This document shows positions 38,746 through 42,041 of a DNA stretch of 42,041 nt, piece after piece; position 1 is the stretch's first letter; each line of letters opens with the position of its first letter. Both the position numbers and the translations under genes were made by a program. The stretch comes from Nitrososphaerota archaeon (GTDB lineage Archaea; Thermoproteota; Nitrososphaeria; Nitrososphaerales; Nitrosopumilaceae), in the NCBI GenBank assembly GCA_022573895.1, contig JACZTB010000010.1, positions 1-42,041 on the forward strand. Reading direction: 5' to 3'. The notes beneath the pieces were generated by a model that saw only the letters and a list, made by a program, of their open reading frames with translations, was not told the DNA's origin and searched no databases.

Positions 38746-39519
38746 ATGATTGATCATCTATGGCTAATTCCTCTGGGATTTGTTGCAGGAGTATTGGGCT
38801 CTATGATTGGTCTTGGTGGTGGAATTATAGTAGTTCCAGTATTGACATTTCTAGGATTTACTCCTACTGCTGCAGCAAGTAACAGTCTTTTTGCTGCATT
38901 AAGTAATGCTATTGCGTCAACTATTTCATATTCTAGACAAAAAAGAATTGAATATTCACTAGGCCTAAAACTTGGACTACTTACAATTCCTGGAACTATT
39001 CTTGGTGCAGTTATTTCTAATGATGTAACTCCTGATATTTTTAAAATTTTATTTGGTTTTGTATTGATTGCATCTGCATCTTACATCTTTTTGAGAAAAA
39101 AAATTGAGACTAAAGAAAAAACCCTAACCAAACAGATGATGATTTTTGCAGTGGGTGCTAGTTTCTTTGCAGGAATAATTTCTTCATTTTTTGGAATAGG
39201 TGGTGGAATAATCTTTGTGCCTTTAATGGTAGTTGGAATGGGAATGGCTATGAAAAAAGCCGCTCCAACTTCTCAATTGATTTTGTTATTCGCATCATTA
39301 TCTGGAGTGACAGCTCATAGTATTTTGGGGCATCCTGATTTTACTCAGGCAGGATTTTTAGCAATTGGTTCTTTTCTTGGTGGATTAGTTGGTGCAAGAT
39401 TATCTTTAGATATCAAAGAACGATATTTGAAAATCATAGTATCTATTGTAATCTTGATAGCAGCTGCAAAACTCTTTTTTGATTCGATATCTGATGGCTC
39501 AACTCTTTTTGGATATTAG
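38746..39519 (+). CDS. TauE/SafE-family membrane permease
   Basis: About 257 residues from the ATG at 38746 (a TTG at 38734 adds four). About eight membrane spans in two homologous halves, each opening with the family motif: GVLGSMIGLGGGIIVVPVLT near the start and ISSFFGIGGGIIFVPLMVVG in the middle. Members export or import sulfite, sulfonates or other organic anions. The substrate is unknown. It is the last plus-strand gene before the recombinase region. Confidence 0.88.
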   Translation: MIDHLWLIPLGFVAGVLGSMIGLGGGIIVVPVLTFLGFTPTAAASNSLFAALSNAIASTISYSRQKRIEYSLGLKLGLLTIPGTILGAVISNDVTPDIFKILFGFVLIASASYIFLRKKIETKEKTLTKQMMIFAVGASFFAGIISSFFGIGGGIIFVPLMVVGMGMAMKKAAPTSQLILLFASLSGVTAHSILGHPDFTQAGFLAIGSFLGGLVGARLSLDIKERYLKIIVSIVILIAAAKLFFDSISDGSTLFGY

Positions 39520-39571
39520 CCTCGAATTTCTTTTTGTGCTTTTATAATAATTTTGTAATGTATGTTGTTCT

Positions 39572-39635
39572 TTAGGTCTCTGACCTAAGAGCTGGGGAGA
39601 CTAGTCGGCTCCCTAGTATTTTACTCACTAAAATA
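39572..39635 (+). other. Three consecutive hairpins before the recombinase gene
   Basis: Three adjacent inverted repeats: TTAGGTC-TCT-GACCTAA (39572-39588), CTGGGGAG-(9 nt)-CTCCCTAG (39592-39616, one G-T pair) and TATTTTA-CTCAC-TAAAATA (39617-39635). They lie 50 nt after the permease and 22 nt before the recombinase ATG. They could be a terminator and leader, or recombination-site structure. Confidence 0.6.
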
Positions 39636-39656
39636 GCCCCTTTACGTGCCTAAATT

Positions 39657-40907
39657 ATGAAATTAGACATAACAGACATTGAAACATCAGCTTACCAGAA
39701 CTTTTTAGATTATATTCGAAATGAACAAACTAGAATAAAATATTCAAGTGATCTAAAAAAATTCCTAGATTTAGTTCCAGATAAAATTTACAAAGACAAT
39801 GACATTGAATTTACTGACAAGACAGAAGCATTTGTAACTTTAGTTAGAGCAGATGTTAAAGTTGGCAAATCAATAATCAAAGCATACGTTAGAGAATTAA
39901 AAAAGAAGATTGATGATGATTCCATATCTCCATCTAGAGTATTGAATTTAATCAAACCAATCAAAGCTCTTTTTGCTGCAAACGATATTGATTTTTCATG
40001 GCAGAAAATAAACAAATCAATTCCTAAACCTGGTAAATCAAAAGACAAGGCATACACAAGAGAACAACTGCAGATGTTAATGGCAAATGCAACTAATCTA
40101 GTTGATAAAATTATGATTACACTATGTTCTTCAGCTGGATTCCGAGTTGAAGCTTGGGATTATTTTACATGGGATGATGTTGTGTTTTTTTATAATGATG
40201 ATAATTCTCTGAAAGGTGGAGCATTAAGGATCTATCATGGAGATGATGAGGAATATTGGACTCACTTTACACCCGAAGCTGGAAAGTATCTATTGCTATA
40301 CAAAGAATCTTGGAAATCTAGATTTATGAGATATCCAAAAGAGACTGACCCTTTGGTAGTCTCTGTAAGAATTCTACATCCATCCAGACTTGGCAAGAAA
40401 GGCATGGAGTCTAGAATGAATGAACTTGCAAAAAAGTGTGGATTTAGACCTAAATTAGAGCCTGGACAAAAACGTCATAAAGTGATGCTTGATCATGGCA
40501 TGAGAAAATACTGTAATACCATGATGAGACGAGCTAAAGTTAATTTTGCAGATAAAGAAGACATGCAAGGACGAAATCCAGGCGGGCAAGAAGGAAGTTA
40601 TGAGCGATATGAAGAACAAGACTTTGAGCGATTCAGTGAATATCAAAAGGCAATTCCTTTCTTAACTATCTCTGATGAGGAAAGAATACGACTAGAAAAT
40701 GAGAAATTAAAACAAGAAAATACTGAGAAAAAACAATTTGAAGAGAAAATCAAGGTTCTAGAGCAAAGACAAGGAGAACTTGAAAATAGTCAAAAAGAAT
40801 ATGAATCCATCAAACCCGATTTAGATAAAATGCTTTTAGAATATGTTGAAGAGCTTGGAGAAGATTTCTTCAAACAAGTGTTTGGTGAAAAAACTTTCAA
40901 AAATTAA
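39657..40907 (+). CDS. Tyrosine recombinase with coiled-coil tail
   Basis: A 416-residue site-specific recombinase of the archaeal integrase type. A SAM-like core-binding domain lies at about 10-120. The catalytic domain has Arg163 in SSAGFRVEAW, His280/Arg283 in DHGMRKYCNT, and a candidate nucleophile Tyr315 in GSYERY (Tyr318 is the alternative). Residues about 345-395 form a coiled coil (ERIRLENEKLKQENTEKKQF and on), unusual for phage integrases. It presumably moves or resolves a genetic element whose other parts lie beyond the window. A long non-coding repeat region starts right at its stop codon. Confidence 0.82.
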   Translation: MKLDITDIETSAYQNFLDYIRNEQTRIKYSSDLKKFLDLVPDKIYKDNDIEFTDKTEAFVTLVRADVKVGKSIIKAYVRELKKKIDDDSISPSRVLNLIKPIKALFAANDIDFSWQKINKSIPKPGKSKDKAYTREQLQMLMANATNLVDKIMITLCSSAGFRVEAWDYFTWDDVVFFYNDDNSLKGGALRIYHGDDEEYWTHFTPEAGKYLLLYKESWKSRFMRYPKETDPLVVSVRILHPSRLGKKGMESRMNELAKKCGFRPKLEPGQKRHKVMLDHGMRKYCNTMMRRAKVNFADKEDMQGRNPGGQEGSYERYEEQDFERFSEYQKAIPFLTISDEERIRLENEKLKQENTEKKQFEEKIKVLEQRQGELENSQKEYESIKPDLDKMLLEYVEELGEDFFKQVFGEKTFKN

Positions 40908-41175
40908 TTTATAAAAAATTCAAAATAATTTATAAATAAAAATAATTTATAACAAATTTTTTTCTAAGATTTGTTAAAGAAATGTTAAGCTTAAGATCTT
41001 ATCAGGTACAAATTTATTTTTTCTTAATCTAAGCTTGCAAAAGCTTAGCAAAATCTTTAAGCTAAGCTTAAGATAAGCTAAGCTTAGAATCAAGGATAAT
41101 CTTGTAAGCTAAGCTTAACTTCATGAAAATATCAAGTCTTAACAAGATCTTAGCTAAGCTTAGCCAAGACTTGGC
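40907..41175 (+). ncRNA. Array unit 1 (AAGCTTAGC theme)
   Basis: A TATA-rich header (40907-40958) is followed by seven AAGCTT-centred palindromic copies (40987, 41031, 41041, 41064, 41080, 41111, 41156), usually as GCTAAGCTTAG. It ends in a perfect hairpin GCCAAG-A-CTTGGC (41163-41175) followed by a T-rich stretch. This is consistent with a transcribed structured RNA of about 200 nt or with a cluster of protein-binding sites. The strand is assumed from the TATA header and terminal hairpin. Confidence 0.4.
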
Positions 41176-41263
41176 ATGTTTTTATTATCTTTACAAAGAA
41201 TGAATTGTGAATTTTTTATCATTTTATGATTTGTTTATAAACAAGAATTATTTTTTAAACTTT

Positions 41264-41566
41264 AAAATTAATTTATAAATAACTTAAAATTATTTATAAA
41301 TAATAATTATTTATAACAAATTGTTTTTGAAGTTTTTACTAAGATTTATCAAGCTTCAAACTGATTTAGGCACAGTCAAGTTTTAAGTTATTTTAAAATT
41401 GAAGTTTATCTTAATGAAACTTGAAGATTCTTTAAGAAAGTCAGGGTCTAGAATCGAGCCTATATGAAGAAAACATCAGTTTTCTTCAAGTTGATCTTCA
41501 AAAGCTTCAAGATTCTTGAAGATTTTCCAAGATTATGTTTTTTTACTGGTTAACTTGGGAAACCTT
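41264..41566 (+). ncRNA. Array unit 2 (CTTCAAG/CTTGAAG theme)
   Basis: The same skeleton as unit 1, but the theme is CTTCAAG and its inverse: CAAGCTTCAAA (41350), ACTTGAAGATTC (41419), TTCTTCAAG (41482), AGCTTCAAGATTCTTGAAGA (41503-41522). It ends in a long hairpin TTTCCAAG ... CTTGGGAAA (41525-41563, one G-T pair). The same arrangement with a different complementary sequence is what compensatory change in an RNA would look like. Confidence 0.4.
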
Positions 41567-41809
41567 TTGATTGTTGAAATAGCAATTCTTCTTAAAGGTT
41601 TTACATATTTTGGATAACCAACCTTAGAATCAAGAAATATACGATTGTTAGTCGTAAAATTTTTTATAAATAATTTTGAATTATTTATAAATAAAATTAA
41701 TTTATAACAAATTTGTTTATAGGATTTTACTGAGGTTCAGTAAACTTAATGACACTGTTAGGCACGAGTCAGTTTTAACTTCATTAAAATTCATAAGTTT
41801 ACTAAAATA

Positions 41810-41884
41810 AAATAAAAAACGTTCTAAAGTCATTAAAAAACGTCATCAAGTCATTAAAAAACGCTCTAAAATCATTAAAAAAAA
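41810..41884. repeat. 21-bp tandem repeats, set 1
   Basis: CATTAAAAAACG begins at 41831 and 41852. A leading variant (AAATAAAAAACG) lies at 41810 and a trailing one at 41873: a period of exactly 21 bp, two DNA helical turns. Confidence 0.85.
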
Positions 41885-41917
41885 TTTATGCAGAATCGAG
41901 GCTAATCCAGCATTTTG

Positions 41918-41937
41918 TTAAGCTAAGCTTAGCTTAA
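41918..41937. repeat. Perfect 20-bp palindrome
   Basis: TTAAGCTAAGCTTAGCTTAA is its own reverse complement. It is built from the unit 1 theme but located in unit 3. Confidence 0.9.
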
Positions 41938-41945
41938 TGACTTAA

Positions 41946-42000
41946 TTTAATGACTTTATGACTTGATTTAATGACTTTATGACTTGATTTAATGACTTTT
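41946..42000. repeat. 21-bp tandem repeats, set 2
   Basis: TTTAATGACTTTATGACTTG plus A repeats at 41946 and 41967 exactly, with a partial third copy from 41988. The period is again 21 bp. Confidence 0.88.
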
Positions 42001-42041
42001 CTTGTCTTTTAAAGAAGACACCAAAGATACACTAAGACATG

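Follow-up and report, generated by a model that had tools for sequence, protein, structure and literature searches.

Tyrosine recombinases are usually viewed as a catalytic body with its own attachment site. The attP arm regions of elements that carry a tyrosine integrase contain repeated, helically placed sites near int. Iteron origins and type II (ParR/parC) centromeres consist of direct repeats with spacings of about 11 and 21 bp, next to AT-rich DNA. The shufflon invertase Rci of plasmid R64 works on sfx sites with 12-bp arms and a 7-bp spacer, and has an extra C-terminal domain that is thought to mediate cooperative binding (PMC11852207). In the archaeal group studied here, Krupovic et al. 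2019 (PMC6563490) describe integrated elements whose tyrosine integrase lies at tRNA 3′ ends; such elements are known to insert at the 3′ ends of genes, which thereby gain a new stop codon.

The window analysed here (the whole 42,041-nt contig C10 of genome G000, from a Nitrosopumilaceae archaeon, with genes that would fit a Nitrosopumilus-type ammonia oxidiser) ends in an array of non-coding repeat units directly behind a tyrosine recombinase gene (Table 1). We found no description of such arrays in the literature. Their closest analogue is the shufflon. In both systems, a tyrosine recombinase adjoins the array (here in 8/8 loci with strong matches to R1, our profile of unit ends), the recombinase has an extra C-terminal domain (in the window, a predicted helix at residues 340-409, which is likened to the domain of Rci by its layout), and segments are separated by repeated sites, which here, in most loci, have two putative arms and a 7-bp spacer. 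However, the segments here contain no reading frame, and hence no alternative gene 3′ ends. The sites are palindromic and AT-only, with spacers that are unequal in the window, and the recombinases are mutually unrelated, yet share one box sequence. Moreover, the array follows an integrase (with a tRNA in at least three loci) and not a pilus gene. A mid-unit motif, M2, occurs in both orientations, as known from assembled sequence alone.

In integrons, too, a row of repeated units adjoins a tyrosine recombinase, but the cassettes here are not genes, and the recombinases come from several unrelated groups. An integron assignment was rejected, with 0 attC pairs (RYYYAAC ... GTTRRRY) in all eight arrays and 0.02-0.18 in shuffles. 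Like attP arms, the arrays consist of repeated sites that are placed helically and lie close to the int gene of an integrated element, but their position is 3′ to int and remote from the tRNA junction, and their units are several hundred bp long with different words; we found no exchange of tail and array in the literature consulted. Unlike iteron origins and ParR/parC centromeres, each locus has several word families, and no rep or par gene was seen. A term search of Krupovic et al. 2019 (PMC6563490) gave no mention of either such arrays or tail exchange.

Repeat units in the window

A repeat search resolved positions 40900-42041 into three non-coding repeat units. The longest repeat family comprises 138-nt headers that start at 40900, 41264 and 41655, and are thus exactly 364 and 391 nt apart. 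Over 138 nt without gaps, these headers are 71% (units 1 and 2), 62% (units 1 and 3) and 64% (units 2 and 3) identical, compared with an average of 47% and a maximum of 54% for the best 138-nt match at offsets 300-420 in 200 dinucleotide shuffles. Each header contains three TTTATAA boxes, spaced 21 and then 17 bp, and no pair of TTTATAA boxes within 24 bp occurs in 223,513 bases of array-less related genomes. Since the header identities exceed those of shuffles and box pairs are absent from the background, the colinear units are confirmed as genuine. Their number is a minimum, because the contig stops within the array. The array contains no ORF of 50 aa or more, and the 7-bp spacers between boxes differ across the three units (AAAAATA, AATAATT and AAAATTA).

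A sequence-only reading of this DNA had described units that open with several TATA-like boxes and keep their landmarks at the same spacing (364 nt from unit 1 to unit 2, and 391 nt for the third), with different sequence in between. The boxes are present in every window header, and the filler words do vary from one unit to the next. These spacings hold for the headers, but not throughout for the AGAATC landmark (AGAATCAAGGATAAT at 41086, AGAATCGAGCCTATA at 41450 and AGAATCGAGGCTAAT at 41892; also found in relatives), which in unit 3 lies ~441 nt past that of unit 2, not 391 nt, because inner lengths vary. The CCAAG/CTTGG hairpin said to close units 1 and 2 is likewise there (41163-41175 in unit 1; 41527-41531 with 41554-41558 in unit 2), but was not seen as a landmark in the units of other genomes.

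Two other regions of the window contain repeats. Positions 1-330, at the opposite contig end, have GGAATTAGTTCTGGAATAGGTTCTGAAATTGGTTCT-type repeats and are by far the densest short-repeat region of the window besides the array; they may encode repeats within a gene on the - strand. Positions 39570-39650, immediately before the recombinase start, are unusually G+C-rich and include the inverted repeats AGGTCTCTGACCT and GGGAGACTAGTCGGCTCCC. This stretch, in which no tRNA and no Rfam match was found, could be an attachment site or a small RNA.

Table 1. Features of the recombinase gene and the array in the window
Feature	Coordinates	Strand	Basis or content
Tyrosine recombinase gene, 416 aa	39657..40907	+	ORF; weak PF00589; Foldseek; 13 relatives
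Tail type I (last 71 aa, predicted single long helix)	40692..40904	+	common to five type-I array-bearing recombinases
Unit 1 box cluster	40908..40954	.	TTTATAA boxes 40908, 40929, 40946; spacing 21, 17
Unit 1 interior	40955..41263	.	word AAGCTTAGC/GCTAAGCTT, both orientations
Unit 1 motif M1	41001..41014	+	ATCAGGTACAAATT
Unit 1 motif M2	41086..41101	+	AGAATCAAGGATAATC
Unit 2 box cluster	41272..41318	.	boxes 41272, 41293, 41310
Unit 2 interior	41319..41654	.	word CTTGAAGA/TCTTCAAG
Unit 2 motif M1	41365..41373	+	TTTAGGCAC
Unit 2 motif M2	41450..41465	+	AGAATCGAGCCTATAT
Unit 3 box cluster	41663..41709	.	boxes 41663, 41684, 41701
Unit 3 interior, truncated by contig end	41710..42041	.	
Unit 3 M1 dyad GACAC-TGTTAGGCAC-GAGTC	41751..41770	+	arms covary among units
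Unit 3 left arm	41826..41879	.	21-nt AAGTCATTAAAAAACG repeats; 80% complementary to right arm
Unit 3 motif M2	41892..41906	+	AGAATCGAGGCTAAT, exact match
Unit 3 right arm	41946..41999	.	TTTAATGACTT/TATGACTTGA repeats, 21-nt period

Distribution and anatomy of the arrays

We searched for further arrays using BLAST with the units, the 15-mer pattern AGAATCGAGGCTAAT, and R1, a sequence-only profile made from eleven unit ends. The training units came from five genomes of the eight in which the same arrays were found, among 250 genomes of the family (G000, which contains the window, G027, G034, G088, G093, G123, G136 and G140; G034, G136 and G093 were outside the training set). All strong R1 matches in the 250 genomes (8/8) lie directly 3′ of a tyrosine recombinase, and the other matches have E values of 9e-4 or worse. 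The landmarks of the window, whose recurrence in relatives the first reading had proposed as a check, reappear in seven more genomes, in each case behind a tyrosine recombinase. In all eight loci, the stop codon of the recombinase marks the start of the array; in G027 and G093 it falls within the first box. The locus of G088 lies on one closed contig. With R1, a search of 400 genomes across the order confined the arrays to two genera of the same family. The M2 pattern gave only chance matches in all genome and viral contigs, and one viral contig (L260) passed a loose box filter. An array-like match on contig C79 of G000 was dropped, as it had no unit anatomy on reading.

G000 also has an isolated fourth unit, on contig C86 at about 39,390-39,910 (L006:1470-1990), with boxes at both ends. 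This unit has no adjoining recombinase, follows a gene for a secreted protein at a distance of a few tens of bp from the stop codon, and is the only one found away from recombinases in the 250 genomes. Genes for one kind of secreted protein, which in G140 has cupredoxin and HYR domains, neighbour the arrays of G140 and G093 as well as this isolated unit (L118:14475-15692, L117:5412-6662 and L070:9914-11755), and may be element cargo.

Units are bounded by box clusters that consist, in essence, of the palindromic ATTTATAAAT, 7 bp and a second ATTTATAAAT, so that the two boxes are spaced 17 bp; in many cases a third box stands 21 bp away. Both the 17/21 spacing and the layout of the pair (10 bp, a 7-bp spacer, 10 bp) are seen in most loci. 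The 7-bp spacers are identical in unit 2 of G123 and in unit b of G140, and the first boxes of G034 read AGTTATAACT, with the palindrome retained. The M1 motif (TTAGGCACAAATTC) is found near unit ends, and M2 (AGAATCGAGGCTAAT) in the middle of units. On its opposite strand (TTAGCCTCGATTC), M2 resembles M1, and it points either way relative to the recombinase as well as to the M1 end of its unit. The filler words are unit-specific and occur in both orientations (AAGCTTAGC, CTTGAAGA and GTCATTAAA in the window; CCTTG, ATCGAT, CATG and GATG elsewhere). Units are found in either orientation, and near-identical direct copies of about 40 bp flank two of them.

The non-coding units of G123, G088 and G140 are 74-79% identical over 400 bp; for G123 and G088 the values are 79% over 401 bp for the units and 22% for the recombinase bodies. 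Arrays nonetheless change fast, since those of G093 and G140 align poorly between flanks that are 84-85% identical. Two stretches behind arrays were also noted. L116:9042-9160, in G088, contains 40-70 bp pieces that are 81-100% identical in many genomes of the genus, and these constitute a small dispersed conserved element without an Rfam match. In G136 and G034, the stretches of about 100 bp that follow the arrays (L338:7466-7560 and L339:8928-9030) are alike although the surrounding genes differ, and could represent the right part of the element.

The recombinase and its tail

The window recombinase has a weak match to PF00589 and is 44-54% identical to 13 relatives; none of its relatives was found in viral contigs and phages. 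The best Foldseek matches of its AF2 model (pLDDT 75, pTM 0.53) are XerA and Cre, with E values of 1e-6 to 1e-4 and low TM-scores, which therefore support the fold class alone. R163, H280, R283 and Y315/Y318 are aligned and invariant in the window enzyme and its relatives, so that it has both the fold and the R-H-R-Y residues of tyrosine recombinases, but its box-III histidine is replaced: the GH in MMGHKVGLE of 13 aligned relatives corresponds to MQGRNPGGQEG in the window (residues 303-316, about 40560-40605). Because this histidine is absent, the enzyme may be impaired or altered. Its tail, predicted by AF2 as one long helix (340-409), differs from the tails of its relatives. This tail, termed tail I, is acidic (net -6), and is therefore unlikely to bind DNA and more likely to make protein-protein contacts.

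Homology of G140 and G093 to integrase-less relatives ends at the tRNA-Glu 3′ end, and the recombinases are therefore integrases of tRNA-targeting elements. The recombinase of G088 is also behind a tRNA, and none was found before the window recombinase. No convincing attR emerged when direct repeats of the tRNA end were sought, and no right end of an element was found.

Coupling of tail and array

The recombinases that flank the arrays are not one family, as the bodies of the window, G123, G088 and G136 enzymes are 17-30% identical, which is the background level. The tails (last 50-75 residues) of the window, G123, G093, G140 and G088 enzymes are 37-69% identical, and the window and G123 recombinases have only 17% identity in the body versus 63% in the tail. 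When the 71-residue window tail was searched against the 250 genomes, E values below 1e-8 were obtained in exactly the five tail-I array loci, and tail I is found solely alongside arrays (5/5). A second tail type, II, is common to the recombinases of G027, G136 and G034, and a weaker match to it on contig C20 of G000 has no array. The bodies of the three type-II enzymes are 45-87% identical, so common ancestry explains their bodies, tails and arrays as well as exchange does.

The tRNA-Glu(CTC) loci allow closely related recombinases to be compared. At this tRNA, the recombinases of G140 and G093 end in tail I and are followed by an array. Those of G090, G097 and G139 have a different tail on a body that is 84-88% identical to that of G140/G093 (84-86% for G093), and no array was found genome-wide with R1 in these three genomes. 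In addition, G098 matches the tRNA and recombinase of G088 at 82% to about codon 370, and not beyond. The simplest account of the tail and body identities, together with the tRNA-Glu pairs, is that tail I and the array have travelled as a pair between recombinase genes. Tail and array are demonstrably coupled, as a pair exchanged horizontally, which points to the array as a previously undescribed DNA part that recombinases may use.

Helical phasing and folding of the units

In 17 units, identical 6-mers recur at 21 bp in 109 pairs, compared with 1.9 expected, and at 11 and 10 bp in 75 and 35 pairs, with about 2 expected. Further recurrence is seen near 32, 42-44, 53-55, 67 and 77-78 bp. With units weighted equally, the best period is 10.85 bp, at which the units exceed 400 background windows (Mann-Whitney p 6e-6, a value that is somewhat optimistic because the period was picked on the same units). 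Phasing is above the 95% level in 7 of the 17 units and near zero in some (window units 1 and 2, C86, G136a and G034a). Periodicity of AA/TT or G/C, of the curvature or nucleosome type, is above the 95% level in 5 and 2 of the 17 units, respectively, and is not clearly above background; phasing therefore sits in the words, and not in overall bendability. Such phasing of words suggests sequence-specific proteins that would bind side by side on DNA.

The enrichment for structure over shuffles that the first reading had named as a criterion is present: most units fold better than shuffles, with z about -1.5 to -8. However, both strands do so about equally, as repeat-rich DNA that contains inverted words should. 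In M1, a dyad of six pairs around AGGCAC has a covariation score of 0.33 versus 0.18 in shuffles, with 0/500 shuffles reaching the score and 71% of cells paired; RNA, single-stranded DNA and a DNA dyad would all fit. RNAalifold gave no supported consensus beyond the box palindromes, and Rfam gave no match at gathering or relaxed thresholds.

Possible roles of the array

We tentatively favour a reading, somewhat short of probable, in which array and tail make up a module of two parts, one DNA and one protein, and the array serves as an assembly or crossover platform. The array would act as double-stranded DNA, and recombinase subunits, or a recruited partner, would assemble side by side on the phased words and the palindromic box pairs. 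A box pair (10 bp, 7-bp spacer, 10 bp) would resemble a core site with two arms, and the putative coiled-coil tail would connect the subunits, a role that has also been proposed for the C-terminal domain of Rci. Such a platform might govern how the element integrates and excises, or it might shuffle the units. That the array has a role in recombination is plausible, though we would not call it probable. Several findings count against a platform. The boxes are unlike the tRNA target, and the sharing of one box sequence by unrelated catalytic domains is unexpected if boxes are crossover sites. The unequal 7-bp spacers of the window would hinder strand exchange between its boxes, and since words differ within one array, a single binding protein would need relaxed specificity. 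Also unfavourable are the little or no phasing in some units, the array-less tail-II-like recombinase, the recombinase-less unit, the acidic tail, the loss of the box-III histidine in the window enzyme, and the lack of a right end or attR. An archaeal non-coding shufflon-like system, in which the tail and invertible or excisable units would form a portable cartridge on unrelated integrases, is an unlikely version; if true, the cartridge would give integrases a new DNA-assembly or shuffling function.

The arrays could instead encode a family of structured non-coding RNAs, carried by the element and transcribed from TATA-like boxes, with M2 as an exposed conserved loop, the words as stems, and a recombinase tail that binds the RNA or is regulated by it. 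The better folding of most units, the covariation of the M1 dyad above shuffles, the complementary word arms that enclose M2 in unit 3, and the resemblance of the boxes to archaeal TATA boxes would all fit such RNAs. However, the strands fold about equally, repeats themselves inflate the folding energy of repeat-rich DNA, an excess of direct repeats at helical spacing is unexpected of RNA stems, and neither RNAalifold, with a consensus limited to the box palindromes, nor the empty Rfam search adds support. The 17 and 21 bp box spacing would also fit paired protein sites better than TATA elements. We therefore regard structured RNA as less likely than a DNA platform, and rather improbable. Of the two readings first offered for the window, tandem structured RNAs fare worse than DNA repeats of an integrated element, given the helical direct repeats, the folding of both strands, the lack of Rfam matches and the single covarying dyad.

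Among roles for such DNA repeats, a replication origin or partition site of the integrated element, with the words as iterons and the AT-rich boxes as an unwinding element, seems about as improbable as the RNA. Its iteron-like repeats at about 11 and 21 bp, the AT-rich boxes and the position of the arrays beside the integrase in integrated elements are as it predicts. But inspection by eye of the ORFs around the arrays, in the loci examined, revealed no gene for replication or partition, and the co-variation of tail and array would be left unexplained. Iterons are one sequence, in helical phase, for one initiator, whereas here there are two or three units per locus with words that differ between units. 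Helical phase is seen in about half of the units. Least likely, in our judgement, are parasitic MITE-like repeats that insert behind integrases, swap the 3′ end for their own tail-coding stretch and do nothing for the recombinase. Such repeats would fit the position of the modules, exactly at stop codons, the differences between the arrays of close relatives (poorly alignable within flanks 84-85% identical), the isolated unit, and the change of tail that accompanies the array; thaumarchaeal elements are also known to target gene 3′ ends and give a new stop codon (PMC6563490). On the other hand, there is no target-site duplication and no transposase, a single unit lies away from recombinases in 250 genomes, and the protein sequence of the tail is conserved between species.

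Recombinases whose bodies are unrelated thus exchange a C-terminal tail together with a large non-coding array. If this array is the partner of the tail, the pair would be a natural modular add-on to recombinases, and would offer a handle on the control of integrated elements in ammonia-oxidising archaea.
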